This document shows, piece by piece, positions 3,593 through 24,012 of a DNA stretch of 24,012 bases. The translations under genes were made by a program, and so were the position numbers. The notes under the pieces are model-generated. The model saw only the letters and a list, made by a program, of their open reading frames with translations, was not told where the DNA came from and ran no database searches. Source of the stretch: a virus. The stretch's first letter is position 1, and each line of letters opens with the position of its first letter. The stretch spans positions 1 through 24,012 of IMG/VR virus record IMGVR_UViG_3300004463_001176; one strand, 5' to 3'.

Positions 3593-4249
3593 TCAGGCGC
3601 TCAATTGCGCCGCAAGTGCCGCAAGATATTCTTCGGCATCGGTGGTGTTGCCGGGCTCACCCCGGAGCAACGGAGCGAGGCCTTTCCCGGCGATCGCCGC
3701 GGCCTCGGACTTCGAAAAGCCTGCCTCGCGCAGGAACGTCTCGAATTCGGGAAGCGAAGGCAAACCGCCGACGCGAATGTTCTTGACCGCCGTCACTGCG
3801 GCCGCACGGTTTGCCGGAAAGTTTACCGGAGAAATCTCCCACAGGTTCACCTTCTCCAGCAGCCGCACGCCCTTGCGCTTCGGGTCGTCTCGGCTCTCGA
3901 TGGTCTCATATCCGATCGAAAGGCCGCGCATCGCGTTGCGGGCAAGAGCGCGGTGCACCCGCACGCCGAGCGGATCGTCAAGGTCAATCTGCCCCTTGAC
4001 CCACAATCCCTTTCGATCCTCGCCGAGGTCGATCCAGTTGCCGATCGGTAGCTCGCTGGACTGGTGGCCCCACAGCATCAGCGGCATAGTCCCTGCCGCC
4101 TTGTGCTCGGCCACCGAATCCTTGAATGCCCCGCGCAGGATTACGTCGCCATAACTGTCGGGCTCGCCGCCGAAGGTGCTGCCGTAACCCTCGATCACAC
4201 CTGCAGCATCGGCGGCCTTGATCTCCAGGCCGAAATCCTTGTGAAACAT
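3593..4249 (-). CDS. Prohead maturation protease (HK97 gp4-like)
   Basis: A 218-residue protein of the HK97 prohead protease family (PF04586, herpesvirus-type serine protease fold). A catalytic triad is readable: His62 in MLWGHQ, Ser111 in GLSIGYE and Glu138 in LWEIS. It opens with a beta-rich segment that includes EGYGSTFGGEPDSYGD, also typical. It would cleave the capsid delta domain and itself during maturation. The ATG at 4249 overlaps the portal stop (TGATG), so the longer upstream extension in this frame is rejected. The C-terminal 60 residues (Ala/Glu-rich) may be the self-cleaved or capsid-targeting tail. Confidence 0.92.
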   Translation of the reverse strand: MFHKDFGLEIKAADAAGVIEGYGSTFGGEPDSYGDVILRGAFKDSVAEHKAAGTMPLMLWGHQSSELPIGNWIDLGEDRKGLWVKGQIDLDDPLGVRVHRALARNAMRGLSIGYETIESRDDPKRKGVRLLEKVNLWEISPVNFPANRAAAVTAVKNIRVGGLPSLPEFETFLREAGFSKSEAAAIAGKGLAPLLRGEPGNTTDAEEYLAALAAQLSA

Positions 4250-8969: not shown

Positions 8970-9447
8970 ACCGCGCCCGCGTCATCGCCCCCGCCAGCTT
9001 GGCGATCGCCCGCTCGTACCGCATCCGCAGCGCATCGCCGCTCGGCACTCCGGCGGGGCGCCCGCCCATTTCCTCGCGCACGTCGTCCCAGGCAAAGCCG
9101 CCCGCGCTCCACCGCTTGCGCGCCACCACGCGGCCCACCAGGGCGCGGTGCTGTTCGGGGATCGCGCTGGCGAGCGGCGCCTCGCCCAGCAGCATCCGGT
9201 CGAGGAACGCCATCTCGGCCACCCCCACGCGCCGCCGCACGGGCCGCTCGGCGCCGATCGCATGGGCATCGCCATAATCGCCCGCATTCACCTCGCGCAC
9301 GATCGCGGGCCAGTTCGAACACTTGCGCCCCACGCCCGGCGCGAGCCACCCGCGCTCGCGATCGGGCAGCGCGCCCAGCAGCTCGAACGCCTCGACCATC
9401 GCATCCTCGGCATCCTGCCAGGTCACCATTCCATCCACTTGCGTCAT
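8953..9447 (-). CDS. Phage protein with C-terminal helix-turn-helix, unknown function
   Basis: A 164-residue protein. The C-terminal third (about 102-152, from RALVGRVVARKRWSAGGFAW to LRMRYERAIAKLAG) looks like a DNA-binding helix-turn-helix followed by a basic recognition helix. The layout recalls small phage proteins such as DUF6362, though I cannot confirm that. The N-terminal part has an acidic helix (QDAEDAMVEAFELLGALPDRE) and a WPAIVREV segment. The ATG at 9447 is preferred over 9474 because AAAGG lies about 8 bases upstream. It is the last gene of the early block before the late region, so a late-gene regulator is a reasonable guess; function remains open. Confidence 0.62.
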   Translation of the reverse strand: MTQVDGMVTWQDAEDAMVEAFELLGALPDRERGWLAPGVGRKCSNWPAIVREVNAGDYGDAHAIGAERPVRRRVGVAEMAFLDRMLLGEAPLASAIPEQHRALVGRVVARKRWSAGGFAWDDVREEMGGRPAGVPSGDALRMRYERAIAKLAGAMTRARWERAG

Positions 9448-9460
9448 GCCGCGCCCTTTG

Positions 9461-9692
9461 CCTCCATTTCGCAAACCTGCGAAAACCCATGCCCAATCAA
9501 TTGTTTACCCTTCACCATTCATCTTCCATTGGAAGAAATGGAGGAATGGAGCATAAAATCGCACCACCCCCGCGCGCGCGCGCCCGCACACACGAGGGGG
9601 CATGAAACCAGCCTCCATTCCTCCACATGCGCGGAAATCCGCCGAAAACCGGCTCCAATCGCGCTGTCGGTTCCCTCCATTTGCCCTCCATT
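9461..9692. repeat. Iteron-like CCTCCATT repeats; candidate phage replication origin
   Basis: The 285-base gap 9448-9732 is packed with one word. CCTCCATT occurs forward at 9461-9468, 9612-9619, 9674-9681 and 9685-9692. In reverse it occurs as the tandem pair AATGGAGG/AATGGAGC at 9537-9552. Two copies form palindromes: CTTCCATTGGAAG (9523-9535) and CTCCATTGGAG (9686-9696). A (CG)n/(CA)n alternating tract lies at 9571-9592, flanked by CCCCC and GGGGG. Position directly downstream of the D5 helicase gene fits an iteron-type origin. A regulatory array controlling the next gene is the alternative. Confidence 0.6.
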
Positions 9693-9732
9693 GGAGCCAA
9701 ACAGGGTCGATTTCGGGGGTCAGGGGGCATCG

Positions 9733-11535
9733 TCAGTCACCCGGAATGGCCCCTTCGACAGCGCCCAGGGCCCCGTCAGGCACGTCAGCGGCCTCGTCAG
9801 CGGCGGTCCAGAACCCTTCCTTCACGTCGGTCAGCGTCACCACGTTCTGGATGCCCAGCCACCACGCACCGTTGCTGTGCTTGTCCTTGAACCGCTTGGC
9901 GAACATCTCCTTGGCGAAGGCCCGCTCCTGCATCTCGTAGGCGCCGGTCTGGTGGCACCATGCCTGGTACAGCTCGAACAGGTCGCCCTTGCGCACCCGC
10001 CACGGCCGCGCGCGGGTGTCCTCGCCCACCTCGCAGGTCTGGCGCAGGAAGCGGCCGATCGTGTCCGAATCGTCGCGATACTCGCTTGTGGCGAGCCGCA
10101 CGTCCTCGGGCTCGATCAGGCCATGCTTGCGCCAGTCCAGCAGCCCGCGCATCAGCCAGGCGAAGATACCCGCGCGCTCGGCCAGCAGCTTGTCCTTCAG
10201 CGCCTTGTCGCGCTGGTTGGCCGGAATATCGGCCTCCCACGGGACCAGCTGCATGCGGCGCCAGATGCCGTCGCTGGTGTCCTTGATCACCGGCTTGTTG
10301 TTGCCGCTGATCGTGATCTTGAAATCGGGGAAGAACGTGAAGAAGCCCTTGTTCAGATGCCGCGCATCGACCGGGTCTTCGCCGGTCAGCTCCTTCACCA
10401 GCCCCTCGTCCAGCACCGCGCCCTTGCTGGGTTCGCTAACGCGCAGGAACCGCACCCCGGGCAGCTTGGCGATCGCGGGCGTGGCCTGGTCGCCCGATTT
10501 CTTGCCCTGGTCGAGCAGGCTCTGGATCTTCACCGTGCCCGCGTAATCGCCCGCGATCCGCGCGATCGTCTCGACCCAGGTGCCCTTGCCGTTGCTGCCC
10601 CCGCCATAGAAGAACGCCAGCTTCTGCTCGCCGGTGAAACCGGTCATCGACAGTCCGCCCCACTGGGCCAGGAACCGCCGCATTTCCGGCTTCGGCTGCA
10701 CCACCGCCAGGAATTCCTCGTACACCGGCGACCGCGCGCCCTCGTGATATTCGACCTCGGCCAGCTTGGTGATGAAGTCGTCGCGCTCGTGCGGGTGCAG
10801 CACCATGCACCAGGGCGTGTGCCATTCGCTCTTCCCGGCCTCCACCTCCGCGCTCGATCGTTTGCGCCGCCGCCGCTCCATGCGGAGCGTCCCGTTCAGC
10901 ACGTTGATCGCCATGCGCTCGCGGTCGAAATCCTCGACCCGGGCGACCAGCGCGGTCATGCTCTTGGCCAGCGCGCCGGCGGCCGCGATCTTGCCCGCGG
11001 CCTCGCTCGTGCGGGCCCATTCGGCGATCTTGTCCGAATACATCACCGGCACGTTGCGCTTGAAATCGACGACGAAATCCATCTTGCCCGCGTGCTCGCG
11101 ATCGAACGCGGCCAGCGCCTCGCCTGCCAGATGCGCCGGCACGTCCGGCCGCTCGCCGCTCGCGCGCACCAGCTGCGCTTCGTTCTTGATCGCGCGCATG
11201 GTCGAAAACAGCGCCTGCATCACCTCCGGCGGCAGCATCTTGGGCTCCTCGCCCAGCAGCAGCCAGCGCCGCCCGTCCCACCGGAACCAGCCCATTTCCG
11301 CGCAGAACCGGAAATCGCGGCCGTGCCGGTGGACGAAGCGCTCGGCATTGCCCAGGTCGGTCATGGGGAAGCGCGCACAGGCCCGGTCCAGCGCGTCGTC
11401 GGCCATCGGGCGCAGCTGCACGACCTTGCCCCCTGACCCTCCCTGAGGTTCACCAGCGCCGCCTGCTCCATCAGGAGCAAAGCCAGAACCCTCCCCAGCG
11501 GGGTCGGGGGTCGTATCGTCGTGCACGCTGGCCAT
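9733..11535 (-). CDS. D5/P4-type SF3 replicative helicase (primase-helicase C-terminal type)
   Basis: A 600-residue phage replication helicase. Residues about 75-280 match the D5 N-terminal region preceding the motor. The SF3 motor shows Walker A GGGSNGKGT (311-319), the Walker B strand VRFLRVSE (361-368), and motif C ITISGNNKP (408-416) with its sensor Asn. The arginine-containing GIWRRMQLVPW (423-433) follows. The C-terminus (about 480-580) carries the winged-helix-like region seen in poxvirus D5-type proteins. No primase active site is visible; that job goes to the DnaG-like protein two genes upstream. The ATG at 11535 overlaps the previous stop (TAATG), so the longer 655-residue reading is rejected. 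The Gly-rich N-terminal 40 residues look disordered. The iteron field follows its stop directly. Confidence 0.92.
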   Translation of the reverse strand: MASVHDDTTPDPAGEGSGFAPDGAGGAGEPQGGSGGKVVQLRPMADDALDRACARFPMTDLGNAERFVHRHGRDFRFCAEMGWFRWDGRRWLLLGEEPKMLPPEVMQALFSTMRAIKNEAQLVRASGERPDVPAHLAGEALAAFDREHAGKMDFVVDFKRNVPVMYSDKIAEWARTSEAAGKIAAAGALAKSMTALVARVEDFDRERMAINVLNGTLRMERRRRKRSSAEVEAGKSEWHTPWCMVLHPHERDDFITKLAEVEYHEGARSPVYEEFLAVVQPKPEMRRFLAQWGGLSMTGFTGEQKLAFFYGGGSNGKGTWVETIARIAGDYAGTVKIQSLLDQGKKSGDQATPAIAKLPGVRFLRVSEPSKGAVLDEGLVKELTGEDPVDARHLNKGFFTFFPDFKITISGNNKPVIKDTSDGIWRRMQLVPWEADIPANQRDKALKDKLLAERAGIFAWLMRGLLDWRKHGLIEPEDVRLATSEYRDDSDTIGRFLRQTCEVGEDTRARPWRVRKGDLFELYQAWCHQTGAYEMQERAFAKEMFAKRFKDKHSNGAWWLGIQNVVTLTDVKEGFWTAADEAADVPDGALGAVEGAIPGD

Positions 11536-11783
11536 TACCGTGCCATCGCGCGCGCGAGGCGTCGCGCGAGACGCTTTTCTGTAATCCCGCGCCAGACGTG
11601 CCAGTCCATCGTGTCCGAAGGATGGGTCCGCCCACGCAGGTTGCCGCGGCGAGCTTTCCAGTCGCGGACGGCGAAGTCGCGCGCCGACTTCTTGTTCCAA
11701 CCTGCGCTCAGGGCACTATTCACGAAATGCCGCACGGCATCGGCCTTGGAGCCGATCCTTTGGTTTATCCACGAGCGACCCAT
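11535..11783 (-). CDS. Small basic protein between primase and helicase
   Basis: An 82-residue, strongly Arg/Lys-rich protein (MGRSWINQRIGSK... ending ARRLARAMAR). It is overlapped on both sides: its ATG shares a base with the primase stop (TGATG) and its stop shares a base with the helicase start (TAATG). Such coupling means all three are made together. No family recognised. The charge and position suggest a nucleic-acid-binding replication accessory, perhaps a helicase loader or primase partner, but this is inference only. Confidence 0.72.
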   Translation of the reverse strand: MGRSWINQRIGSKADAVRHFVNSALSAGWNKKSARDFAVRDWKARRGNLRGRTHPSDTMDWHVWRGITEKRLARRLARAMAR

Positions 11784-13606
11784 CAACGCGCCCCCGCATC
11801 ATGCCAGGCGAGCGCGCTGGCGGCGCGGGGCGGGGTCGCCGTTCCCCCGGTCACCGCCTTGGGCGTCGGCCGCGCATCGACCACCACCGGCAGCAGTGCC
11901 TCGGTCAGCGGTCCCTCGATCGCCAGCACCCGGCGATAGAGCACCAGCACGCTCTCGGCCTCGTGCCGCCCCGCGCTCGATCCTTCGGCCAGGTCCGCCT
12001 CGATCATGCGCACCACCGCGTCGACCTGCGGCATCCGCAGGCCCGCCATCTTGCCGATCTCGCGCACGAACCGGCGTTCCTCGCGGATCGGCTCCACCGC
12101 CGCGCGCTCGTCGGCGCGCAGGCGCAGCAGCCGCTGGACCACCGCGATCAGGCGCTTCTCGCTGTCGTCCTCGCTCTCGGGCCAGTGATACTCTCCGTCC
12201 TCGGCCGGAACGACCGTGGCCAGCGCATCCGCGCGGCCCGCGCGCTCGACCCCGGAAACGAGCCGTTCGTACCGCGCCCGCCACGCCGCCAGGTATTCGC
12301 CGCGCAGCTCATCGTGCCCGATCGTCTCCGCCAGCCCCGCCAGCGCCTGCCACACCGCCGCACGATCTTCCGGCGACCATTCCGACAGATCGAGATCGGC
12401 GAGGGACCTAGCGGAGCGAGGCAAGGGCGACCGCCCGCCCGCAGCGGGTGCAGCTTGCTGCACGTCTAGCGAGGACGCGGCCCCGGATGGGGCTGCGGAA
12501 CAAACAACTTCCTGAAACATAAACCCGTCGAGCGGCAGCGCGTCGTCGATCAGCGCCTCGACCGCATCCTTGCCCCGCGCCCGCACGAAATCATCCGGAT
12601 CCTGCCCTTTCGGCAGCAGCGCGACCTTCAGTGTCCGGTCGGGCGCAAGGCCGGGCAGGGCGCGCTCGCACGCCCGCCGCGCGGCCTTGCGCCCGGCCGC
12701 ATCGCCGTCGAACATCAGCACCGGGGCGCGGCACAGCCGCCACAGGCGGGTCAGCTGCTCCTCGGTCAGCGCGGTGCCCATCGGCGCCACCGCCTCGGCC
12801 ACGCCGGCGCCCGCCAGCGCGATGACGTCGAAATAGCCTTCGACCACGATCGCGCGCTTGTTCGCCCGGATCGCAGGCGCGGCGCGGTGCAGGTTGAACA
12901 GCAACCGCCCCTTGTCGAAGATCTCGCTGTCCGGCGAGTTGAGGTACTTCGCCACGCCCTCCGGCGCACCAGGCGCGACGCGAGCGCCAAATCCCATGAT
13001 CCGCCCGCGGGCATCGTGCACTGGCACCGTGATCCGGCCCAGGAACCGCGCACCGCTGCGGCCGTCACGTTCCCATGTCAGACCTGCCGCGAGCGCGTCG
13101 GCCTGCCCGATCCCGGCGCGTTCGAGATAACCGGACCCTTCCGGCGCCAGGCCGAGGCCGAACTGTTCGGCGATCGCCTGCGAAACGCCGCGCTGCTGCA
13201 GGTACTGCTGGACCGACGAGACGCGCCCCAGCTGCGCCGCGAACAGCGCCTGTGCCGCCTCGAGCGCGGGCCGCACCCCGGCCACCCGCGCCGCCTTCGC
13301 TTCGGCCGCACGGCTGCGCTCGGGCATCGCCAGCCCCGCGCCCTCGGCCAGCTGCCGCACCGCGTCGAGGAAATCGAGGCCCTCGACCTCGGTCAGCCAG
13401 CGGATCGGCCCGGCATGGAATCCGCAACCGAAACAATGGGCAAAGCCCTTTTCGTCGCTCACCGTGAAGCTCGGCGTCTTTTCGGAATGAACCGGGCAAC
13501 ACGCCTTCCACTCGCGCCCGTTGCGCGTCAGCTTGACCCGCCCGGCGACCAGCCCCGACATTGCGGTGCGCGATTCGACCTCATCCAGAAATGATTGCGG
13601 GATCAT
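11783..13606 (-). CDS. DnaG-type DNA primase (CHC2 zinc finger plus TOPRIM)
   Basis: A 607-residue primase that would lay RNA primers for phage replication. The CHC2 zinc-binding domain is at the N-terminus: Cys37-Pro-Val-His40, then His57-Cys58-Phe-Gly-Cys61. The catalytic core region follows (about 120-250, with YLNSPDSEIFDKGRLLFNL). The TOPRIM domain shows Glu256 in IVVEGYFDVI and Asp300-Gly-Asp302 in MFDGDAAGRKAA, the expected metal ligands. The C-terminal part (about 405-607) is a divergent helical domain that may contact the helicase. A 38-residue stretch at about 367-404 looks inserted. The ATG overlaps the previous stop (ATGA). A short primase typical of D5-type proteins is absent, so this is the primase of the system. 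Confidence 0.93.
   Translation of the reverse strand: MIPQSFLDEVESRTAMSGLVAGRVKLTRNGREWKACCPVHSEKTPSFTVSDEKGFAHCFGCGFHAGPIRWLTEVEGLDFLDAVRQLAEGAGLAMPERSRAAEAKAARVAGVRPALEAAQALFAAQLGRVSSVQQYLQQRGVSQAIAEQFGLGLAPEGSGYLERAGIGQADALAAGLTWERDGRSGARFLGRITVPVHDARGRIMGFGARVAPGAPEGVAKYLNSPDSEIFDKGRLLFNLHRAAPAIRANKRAIVVEGYFDVIALAGAGVAEAVAPMGTALTEEQLTRLWRLCRAPVLMFDGDAAGRKAARRACERALPGLAPDRTLKVALLPKGQDPDDFVRARGKDAVEALIDDALPLDGFMFQEVVCSAAPSGAASSLDVQQAAPAAGGRSPLPRSARSLADLDLSEWSPEDRAAVWQALAGLAETIGHDELRGEYLAAWRARYERLVSGVERAGRADALATVVPAEDGEYHWPESEDDSEKRLIAVVQRLLRLRADERAAVEPIREERRFVREIGKMAGLRMPQVDAVVRMIEADLAEGSSAGRHEAESVLVLYRRVLAIEGPLTEALLPVVVDARPTPKAVTGGTATPPRAASALAWHDAGAR
12395..12508. repeat. Inverted-repeat-rich in-frame insertion inside the primase
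   Basis: This stretch interrupts the primase between FMFQE and LDLSEWSPEDR, where relatives run on directly (family knowledge, not aligned here). It contains three adjacent perfect dyads: CCCGC-A-GCGGG (12438-12448), GTGCAGC-TT-GCTGCAC (12448-12463) and GCCCC-GGAT-GGGGC (12480-12493). It encodes a low-complexity Ala/Ser/Pro/Gln-rich peptide in frame, resembling the palindromic elements that insert into genes of some alphaproteobacteria. Confidence 0.5.
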
Positions 13607-19269: not shown

Positions 19270-19355
19270 GCCCCATGCATAGTAGCACGATTGCTAACGC
19301 ACAAGAGCATTTTTGCAACAAGATTGCTAATGGCAATCTTGCTAACGCTGCGCGG
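19270..19355. promoter_or_regulatory. cI/cro operator-promoter region
   Basis: Holds GATTGCTAAC (19289-19298), GATTGCTAAT (19322-19331) and TCTTGCTAAC (19337-19346). It also holds an 8-bp perfect dyad AAGATTGC/GCAATCTT (19320-19327 and 19333-19340). These repeated words are the likely binding sites for CI and Cro. They lie inside the longest cI reading frame, which is why the downstream GTG is taken as the cI start. Confidence 0.72.
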
Positions 19356-19985
19356 GTGGAAACAGACAAAGAACTGATCGAAGGGTTGATAGCCCACACC
19401 GGCAAGACCGCGACCGAAATCGCGCGCAAGGCTGGCCTCGCTGTGACCACCCTGACGCGACCGCTGAATCAGCCAGTGAAGCACCAGCTTTCCAAGGCGA
19501 CTATTGAAAAGCTGCGCGAAACTTTCCCCGGGTATTGGGCGCAGGAACCCGATCTGCCTGACGCGCCCGCGGGGCGGGATTACCTTCCCGTGGCAATCCT
19601 CCCATCGTTTGCAGGCATGGGCGGGGGAGGCACTGGCGAGGGTGACATAGAACACGCGCTAGTTCCTCGCCGGCTTGTAGAGGACGAGCTCCGCGCCAAG
19701 CCCTCCGACCTTATAGTGATCGAAGCCCGCGGAACGAGCATGGCGCCAGACTTCTTACACGGAGATCAAATTCTGATCGATCAACGCGACCGCAACACGG
19801 CTCAACCAGGCGCATTCGCGCTATGGGACGGCGACGCCTACGTTGTGAAAATGGTCGAGCGGGTCCCTTTGCATCCGGGACGTTATCGTGTGTTTTCAAA
19901 CGACGAACGATTCTCCGCGTACGAAGTCGACGAAGAGAATATCAGAATCATGGGGAGGCCAGTATGGTTCGGGCGGCGATTGTAA
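19356..19985 (+). CDS. CI-type repressor with self-cleaving S24 domain
   Basis: A 209-residue prophage repressor from GTG 19356 (an in-frame ATG at 19275 would put operators inside the coding region). The N-terminal DNA-binding helix-turn-helix spans about residues 14-38 (HTGKTATEIARKAGLAVTTL region). The C-terminal peptidase S24 domain shows a complete self-cleavage set. The Ala86-Gly87 site lies in SFAGMGGGG, nucleophile Ser128 in GTSMAPDFLHGDQI, and base Lys165 in AYVVKMVER. It should therefore hold the lytic genes off and be cleaved on RecA activation, giving SOS-inducible lysogeny. No Shine-Dalgarno precedes the GTG, so translation may be leaderless, as for lambda cI. The last 22 bases overlap the secreted-protein gene. 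Confidence 0.9.
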   Translation: METDKELIEGLIAHTGKTATEIARKAGLAVTTLTRPLNQPVKHQLSKATIEKLRETFPGYWAQEPDLPDAPAGRDYLPVAILPSFAGMGGGGTGEGDIEHALVPRRLVEDELRAKPSDLIVIEARGTSMAPDFLHGDQILIDQRDRNTAQPGAFALWDGDAYVVKMVERVPLHPGRYRVFSNDERFSAYEVDEENIRIMGRPVWFGRRL

Positions 19986-22302: not shown

Positions 22303-22457
22303 TGAACGCCCCCGCGCGCATTGACCTCTCCACAGGCCCCGCCGCGATCGAATTCGCGCGGGCCCTTGCGCGCGCCCATGTGGCGAGAGACATTGCCGCC
22401 GCACGCCAGGGGGACGATTCCCGCAATGCTCACGCTGATCTACGCCCGCTACTCTAG
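22302..22457 (+). CDS. 51-residue protein overlapping the integrase start
   Basis: Starts at the ATG shared with the previous stop and overlaps the first 32 bases of the integrase gene in another frame. It reads MNAPARIDLSTGPAAIEFAR at the start, then a basic helix (ALARAHVARDIAAARQ). No family is recognised. The overlap could couple or limit integrase synthesis, and the protein might act as an accessory factor; this is inference. Confidence 0.55.
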   Translation: MNAPARIDLSTGPAAIEFARALARAHVARDIAAARQGDDSRNAHADLRPLL

Positions 22458-24012
22458 CTCGCTCCAGAACCCGCGCTCGATCGAGGATCAGCTCGCCGCC
22501 TGCCGCGCGCGCGCCGCGCAGGAAGGCTGGCAGGTCGTCGGCGAATTCCACGACCGTGCCATCAGCGGCGCCGCCGGGATCGAGGACGACCAGCGCCCCG
22601 GCCTTGCCGCGATGCTCGCCCGCCTCGAGGGGGCGCGCTTCGCGGGCGAGCGCATCGACCAGGTCCTGACCGAATCGACCGACCGCATCGCCCGCCACCA
22701 GGGCGATGCCTTTGCCGTGCGCGAGCGGATCGAGCACGCCGGCGCGCGCCTCTTCACCCTGATGGACGGCCACGTCGACGACATCACCGGCACCATCAAG
22801 GGCCTCTTCGACGCGCGTACGCGGAAAGACCTCGCTCAGCGCGTAAAGCGCGGACACGCCGGCAACATCACCCAGGGCCGCGCCGCCAGCGGCGTCGCCT
22901 ACGGTTATCGGAAGGTGATCCGGCACGACGACAAGGGCGAACCGATCCGCGGCCTGCGCGAAATCGACCCCGACACGGCGCCCATCGTGCTGCGCGTCTA
23001 CCGCGAATATGCCGCCGGGCGCAGCGCACGCCAGATCGCGGAAGGGCTGAACCGCGACGGCATCCCCGGCCCGCGCGGCGGCTTCTGGCGGATCAGCGCT
23101 ATCGCCACGGACCGCGCGACCGCGCTCAGCCTGCTCACCAACCCCATTTACATTGGCCAACTGCAGTACGGCCGCACCCGCCGCGTGGTGGATCCGCGCA
23201 CCCGCCAGCGCCGCACCGTGCGTGGCACCGGCGACGTCGTGACCGGCGCCGCGCCGCACCTGCGCATCGTCGACGACGAACTGTGGCAGGCCGTGCAGGC
23301 CCAGATGGAACGCCGCAGCCACGGGCCCTCGCATCGCCAGCGCCGCCCAAAGCGGCTGATGTCGGGGCTGGGCCGCTGCGGGGTCTGCGGCGCAAACTAC
23401 ATCGTCGTTGGCGGGCCGCACTTCGGCTGCAGCGCCTACACCGATGGCCGCGCCTGCACCAACAACCGGCTGATCGCGAGCGACGACTTCGAACGCCGCG
23501 TGCTGGCCGAGCTGCGCGACCAGATGCTGGCGCCGGAAGTGGTAGAGGCGTACCTCGACGAATACCGGCGCGAACACGGCCGCCGCGCGCGCGAGCTCAC
23601 CGGCGAACGCGCCCGGCTCGATCGCCGCATTGCCGAGGCCGCGCGCAAGACAGAGCGCCTCGTCGCCGCGATCGCCGAGGGTGGCGGCGAGTTCGCCGAG
23701 ATCCGCGAGGCGCTGGCTACCGCCAAGGCCGACGAAGCCGCCGCGCGCAAAGCGCTGGCCTCGGCCGACGCGCTTCCCGCACTCGCCCTGCACCCCGGCC
23801 TCGCCCGCCAATACCGCGCCGCGATCGAACGGCTCTCGGAAGAACTCGCCGACGAAACCACCCGAACCGAAACCGCCCCCAAGATAAGGGCCCTGATCTC
23901 CCACGTGATCATCCGGCCCGGCCCGAAAAAGCGCGGCGTAACCCTGGAAGTCGTCCGCCACATCGACGAAATCCTAACCCTCGCCACCCCCCGAAAAGCA
24001 CAACTACGATAA
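22426..24012 (+). CDS. int: Large serine recombinase (phage integrase)
   Basis: A 528-residue large serine integrase. The N-terminal resolvase domain has the Y-x-R-x-S signature in IYARYSSS (Ser10 is the expected nucleophile), RSIEDQLAAC and the active-site arginine segment ESTDRIAR (83-90). The recombinase domain follows (about 155-290, with YGYRKVI, IPGPRGGFWR and LTNPIYIG). The zinc ribbon is Cys318-x2-Cys321-x13-Cys335-x8-Cys344. A coiled-coil region (about 375-470) and a C-terminal tail complete the family layout. It would recombine phage attP with host attB; such enzymes normally need a separate directionality factor for excision. The ATG at 22426 is chosen over the upstream ORF extension because homologues begin near here and a GGGGA precedes it. 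Its TAA is the last codon of the window. Confidence 0.94.
   Translation: MLTLIYARYSSSLQNPRSIEDQLAACRARAAQEGWQVVGEFHDRAISGAAGIEDDQRPGLAAMLARLEGARFAGERIDQVLTESTDRIARHQGDAFAVRERIEHAGARLFTLMDGHVDDITGTIKGLFDARTRKDLAQRVKRGHAGNITQGRAASGVAYGYRKVIRHDDKGEPIRGLREIDPDTAPIVLRVYREYAAGRSARQIAEGLNRDGIPGPRGGFWRISAIATDRATALSLLTNPIYIGQLQYGRTRRVVDPRTRQRRTVRGTGDVVTGAAPHLRIVDDELWQAVQAQMERRSHGPSHRQRRPKRLMSGLGRCGVCGANYIVVGGPHFGCSAYTDGRACTNNRLIASDDFERRVLAELRDQMLAPEVVEAYLDEYRREHGRRARELTGERARLDRRIAEAARKTERLVAAIAEGGGEFAEIREALATAKADEAAARKALASADALPALALHPGLARQYRAAIERLSEELADETTRTETAPKIRALISHVIIRPGPKKRGVTLEVVRHIDEILTLATPRKAQLR

Follow-up and report, generated by a model that had tools for sequence, protein, structure and literature searches.

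An iteron array behind a D5/P4-alpha-type helicase gene as a candidate phage replication origin

An array of short repeats (iterons) lies directly 3' of a D5/P4-alpha-type helicase gene in a 24,012-base virus record, referred to here as the window. This array is very probably the replication origin of the phage, and sequence comparisons point to the helicase as its own initiator, which would recognise the iterons through its C-terminal winged helix. The array is conserved at a fixed place in related phages, has a paired inverted layout and clade-specific words, and its word switches together with a single helicase residue, 611. The initial annotation had already called the region a candidate replication origin, a proposal for which conservation, architecture, and precedent all provide good support.

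The repeat array in the window

Siphovirus-type capsid, portal, and terminase genes lie to one side of the gap that holds the array, and genes for a primase, a DnaA-domain-IV protein, an S24 repressor, and a serine recombinase lie to the other (Table 1). The S24-type repressor and the large serine recombinase indicate a temperate phage that integrates by serine integrase, and because the cellular genomes with helicase relatives include Novosphingobium, Qipengyuania, and Erythrobacter, the host of this temperate siphovirus is probably a sphingomonad. The DnaA-like gene sits in the replication operon, and many related phages, though not all of them, encode a relative.

The gap separates the stop codon of the helicase gene (9733, - strand) from the start codon of its neighbour (ATG at 9447), which agrees with the description of the array as directly following the helicase gene. 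All five exact copies of CCTCCATT in the 24-kb window fall inside 9461-9692, where 0.57 would be expected per window of this size, and none of 100 shuffles reached five. Four copies are on the + strand (9461, 9612, 9674, and 9685) and one is on the - strand (9537), so that the word does occur in both orientations, as first noted; the initial figure of at least six copies exceeds the exact count but is reached once one-mismatch copies are allowed, since CTTCCATT at 9523-9530 and GCTCCATT at 9545-9552 (-) bring the total to seven. Two of the copies had also been described as perfect palindromes. Both palindromes have perfect arms, but with one unpaired base between them, and only that at 9686-9696 overlaps a full CCTCCATT, whereas that at 9523-9535 overlaps none. 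The strongest inverted pair, TGGAGGAATGGAG and CTCCATTCCTCCA, is complementary at 13 of 13 positions, with the arms 61 nt apart, and encloses the alternating CG/CA tract that had been placed, correctly, in the middle of the array, although one phase slip interrupts it.

Terminator-like sites in the gap number one (0.5 expected), the GC skew along the DNA has no step at the array, and a tRNA search returned none. An Rfam miRNA match on the CG tract was sub-threshold (32 bits against a gathering score of 58) and was taken as chance.

The array sits between the replication genes and the packaging and structural genes, a position that would also suit an operator or activator for the genes downstream of the helicase (the late operon), bound by a regulator and not by an initiator. 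TATAAT-like bases do follow the right-hand iterons in two related loci (L010 and L012), but these -10-like bases are poorly conserved and a search of the window gap for a sigma-70-like promoter found none. As the region equivalent to the array is annotated as an origin in Streptococcus phage Sfi21, and the word co-switches with helicase residue 611 (see below), we consider such a regulatory role improbable.

Table 1. Positions of the array elements and of the genes discussed in the text
Feature	Position	Strand	Basis or remark
Iteron array, candidate replication origin	9461..9698		five exact CCTCCATT plus one-mismatch copies, kept in 13 relatives
Iteron copy CCTCCATT	9461..9468	+	exact word match
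Least stable 15-mer of the gap, GTAAACAATTGATTG; candidate accessory melting segment	9494..9508	-	stability calculation
Palindrome CTTCCA-T-TGGAAG	9523..9535		perfect arms, one unpaired base
Inner inverted iteron arm TGGAGGAATGGAG	9539..9551		covers most of the - strand iterons 9537-9544 and 9545-9552
Alternating purine-pyrimidine CG/CA tract	9571..9594		runs of 13 + 10 nt, one phase slip
Inner inverted iteron arm CTCCATTCCTCCA	9613..9625		covers most of iteron 9612-9619
Half-site GGCTCCAAT	9651..9659	+	complementary to 9690-9698
Iteron copy CCTCCATT	9674..9681	+	exact word match
Iteron 9685-9692 overlapping palindrome CTCCA-T-TGGAG (9686-9696)	9685..9696	+	word match and perfect arms
D5/P4-alpha-type SF3 helicase, proposed iteron-binding initiator	9733..11700	-	D5_N, TIGR01613, Sfi21/P4 alpha homology, AF2 model
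Helicase C-terminal winged-helix domain, residues 547-622	9835..10062	-	AF2 model; co-variation with iteron word
Codon of helicase residue 611	9868-9870	-	wing loop of the winged helix
Phage primase gene	11783-13606		separate CHC2/Toprim protein
DnaA-like protein, 179 residues	14278-14817	-	only match Bac_DnaA_C (DnaA C-terminal DNA-binding domain)
S24-type repressor	19275-19985	+	
Large serine recombinase	22321-24012	+	

Conservation behind the helicase gene

The same block is found behind the helicase gene in 13 viral contigs, whose helicases are 57-89% identical, and close relatives have CCTCCATT in that gap only and nowhere else in their loci. Absence of the repeats from related phages had been named initially as an outcome that would speak against an origin; the array is in fact present in the corresponding gap wherever a relative has a similar helicase. 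Both arms can drift together, as in L015, where GCTCCATT/TTGCTCCA is used throughout.

The literal CCTCCATT is mostly gone from distant relatives (33-57% helicase identity). These loci were scanned for the densest short-repeat cluster, without prior knowledge of the word, and this cluster adjoins the helicase stop in most of the 36 loci of the first set and in about 50 of 57 further loci. Several apparent exceptions, namely L017, L018, L020, L035, L097, and L107, have an inserted gene or ORF that separates helicase and array. The array word differs by clade (CCTTCCA/G, TTGCTCCA, TCTCTCCA, GGTTCCA, ATCCTCCC(A/G/T), and CCTTGCA), and inverted iteron pairs around a central tract also occur in the relatives. 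Similar arrays are present in Lactobacillus phage MLC-A and mycobacteriophage Prithvi, whereas three actinophages with a D5 helicase (of Arthrobacter, Curtobacterium, and Microbacterium) have no array behind it; the arrangement is thus common, not universal.

Two further observations concern individual phages. In Mycobacterium phage Prithvi (L170), an iteron cluster of CAGTACGAGTAGTAC starts at 4068, directly 3' of a D5-type polymerase/primase gene, and is a candidate mycobacteriophage origin. Phages recorded from Microcystis, Pseudanabaena, and Nostoc (L042, L047, L050, and L051) have replication modules that resemble those found in phages of alphaproteobacteria, and their true hosts may be bacteria within the cyanobacterial cultures.

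Gene order in the window and in other phages also bears on whether the array could be a packaging site (pac/cos), read by the small terminase that is encoded about 2 kb downstream. Terminase genes do lie within about 2 kb of the array in the window, and RcapNL has its cohesive end some 300 nt past the helicase gene. However, the arrays of AmM-1 and Nsp-JY21 are behind the helicase with other genes downstream, the origin and cos of Sfi21 are about 6 kb apart, and in the pair L107/L113 (see below) the word change accompanies the helicase C-terminus while the flanking DNA is about 90% identical. A packaging function is, in our view, very unlikely.

The helicase and its co-variation with the iteron word

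The window helicase belongs to the P4-type D5_N/primase_Cterm family: it scores 243 bits against TIGR01613 (cut-off 108.7) and 1.9e-16 for D5_N, it matches orf382 of Sfi21, likewise a TIGR01613 protein, in BLASTP (2e-17), and its profile matches P4 alpha with a probability of 97.7. A sequence search of solved structures returned only distant D5/C962R-type helicases, and a fold search agrees, grouping it with the D5/C962R PrimPol helicases. The likely translation start is the conserved Met 56 (ATG 11533-11535) and not the TTG at 11700. AlphaFold2 predicts, with confidence, a winged helix at residues 547-622, and the model places residue 611 in its wing loop.

The initial annotation saw no known iteron initiator among the proteins of the window, and hence expected a new binding partner. 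This needs correction, as the adjoining D5 helicase belongs to an initiator type, P4-alpha/primase_Cterm (TIGR01613), members of which (Cch2 and SaPI Rep) bind iterons directly 3' of their own gene (PMC7581432). Other classes of origin fit less well: no Rep_3-type initiator, as expected near a RepA/RepE-type iteron plasmid origin, was matched among 20 window ORFs scanned with Pfam, and the repeats, CCTCCATT and variants, are unlike DnaA boxes (TTATCCACA).

Residue 611 follows the iteron word. It is Gly in 68/68 loci without CTCCC words and V, E, A, or S in 29/29 loci with them, in a set of 97 that leaves out ten loci with a longer, differently built C-terminus. Among the first 76 loci it was the sole column that split CTCCC words (non-Gly) from the others (Gly) perfectly, and the rule held without exception in the loci fetched later (97/97 in total). 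On a tree built from helicase residues 100-530, excluding the C-terminal winged helix, there are four word switches, each on a branch where residue 611 switches too (p 1.8e-8, resting on these four switches; the next best of 499 helicase columns gave 0.0066). The trait compared, CTCCC versus the rest, was picked after inspection of the data and then checked on the later loci, and the GTTCC words of L022 and of L034, a Novosphingobium kunmingense prophage, were scored as non-CTCCC in this final analysis. A first co-change scan with several word classes had ranked 611 only fourth among the columns tested. When word similarity was set against domain identities by the Mantel method, no C-terminal-specific signal emerged; the words track overall helicase phylogeny, and the claim therefore rests on the single-column analysis and on one swap pair, L107 and L113. 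The helicase cores of this pair differ at 1 of 206 residues and the C-terminal parts at 35 of 125, including G611A, and the words are TTGGGAAG in L107 and TGGGAGG in L113. DNA identity is about 0.9 on both flanks but lower across the last part of the helicase gene and the adjoining intergenic DNA; L107, in addition, has its extra ORF ahead of the array. This strong co-variation, in the co-switching of 611 and in the L107/L113 pair, would tie the C-terminal winged helix to the repeats.

Could the array be an origin whose iterons are read by another protein of the operon, such as the DnaA-domain-IV protein? The gene for this DnaA-like HTH protein does belong to the operon, and many relatives carry one too. 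Yet the 38-kb L002 record has the same array and no homologue of the DnaA-like protein was found in it, which makes that protein an unlikely iteron binder; moreover, the helicase is the only protein detectably shared by the most distant repeat-bearing loci, and it is in the helicase wing that a residue co-switches with the word. We give a reader other than the helicase little chance.

Known origins and the central alternating tract

Two known systems served as positive controls for the repeat scan, which recovered the 302-bp region annotated as the origin of Streptococcus phage Sfi21, directly 3' of orf382, and the crr iterons of P4, directly 3' of the alpha gene. The Sfi21 origin resembles the window array in lying directly 3' of a homologous TIGR01613 gene and in its inverted iteron pairs around a centre, but this centre is 89% A+T and the word is GTTACTTAGTTAC. 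P4 shares the P4-type primase-helicase and, in crr, short iterons of two orientations directly 3' of the alpha gene; its annotated ori, however, lies elsewhere, and whereas P4 alpha has its primase in the same chain, the window primase is a separate protein.

The origins of PICIs are immediately 3' of rep and have two iteron sets around a melting site (PMC6092414). With the rep-ori of SaPIs and other PICIs, the window array has in common the iterons directly 3' of a self-loading helicase gene and the two sets that flank a centre (PMC6092414, PMC7581432), but the PICI centre is AT-rich and that of the window and its relatives is alternating and GC-rich. The organisation has been called unique to PICIs (PMC6092414) and is seen here in full tailed phages. 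The C-terminal domain of SCCmec Cch2 (D5_N/Primase_Cterm), in isolation, binds direct repeats located 3' of the cch2 gene (PMC7581432), although that site has three 5-nt iterons and the element is not a phage.

The 13-nt run of the central tract ties for the longest alternating run in the window. The tract is interrupted in the window's own clade and is therefore clearest in relatives, of which the GC-rich ones have an alternating purine-pyrimidine run between inverted iterons (e.g., CATGTGCGCGTGTGCGCGCACATGCGCACACG). In 51 of 88 loci, against an expectation of 4.2, the longest alternating run of the locus is at most 440 nt from the helicase stop, and 23 of 48 dereplicated gaps have a run of at least 15 (0.11 expected from a first-order simulation). 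Tract sequences vary among relatives while the alternation persists, and their self-complementarity is close to that of alternation-keeping shuffles (mean z of -0.35 for energy and 0.29 for palindrome), which together suggest a structural constraint, e.g., Z-DNA propensity, in preference to a hairpin or a protein site of fixed sequence. Hairpin selection was not supported, as the tracts are hardly more palindromic than these shuffles.

The same comparison weighs against a stem-loop as the essential element, as proposed for plasmid pRN1, with inverted repeats that act by DNA folding. pRN1 requires a stem-loop behind its replicase gene (PMC4234260), a precedent for such an element, and the centre of the window array, as single-stranded DNA, folds far better than shuffles (z -4.8). 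But the tracts of relatives barely exceed the alternation-keeping shuffles in self-complementarity, the stem does not include many of the iterons, and the word varies with a protein residue, so that folding seems a poor candidate for the essential function.

Taking the array as an origin of the self-loading SF3 helicase type, we infer the following steps. The C-terminal winged helix would bind the CCTCCATT iterons, and residues 547-622 of the window helicase would prefer CCTCCATT over CCTTCCAA or CCTCCCAA iterons. Oppositely oriented iterons flanking the central tract would load a pair of hexamers head to head. Strand opening between or next to these hexamers would follow, with bidirectional replication primed by the phage primase. 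The central spacers of close relatives are 24-39% A+T (33-36% in their loci), the least stable 15-mers fall outside the inverted arms, and A+T content is moderately raised to the right of the tract (0.5-0.6 vs 0.37). A tentative possibility is that the Z-prone tract is a central structural element that replaces the AT-rich melting region: supercoiling would drive a B-Z transition there, and the transition or its junctions may aid opening between the head-to-head helicases. Full-text searches, in which coverage of the literature was incomplete, found no published alternating tracts in such origins, and the alternating Z-prone CG/TG centre of GC-rich phages appears new, Sfi21 and PICIs having AT-rich DNA there.

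The array and the helicase place a recognisable candidate origin and its putative initiator in many alphaproteobacterial phages, most of which are represented in metagenomes only. As the word is clade-specific and one wing residue follows it, these phages form a ready-made library on how SF3 helicases would read their origins, with the L107/L113 pair as a natural control, and through the conserved alternating tract a possible contribution of Z-prone DNA to origin opening can be tested directly.
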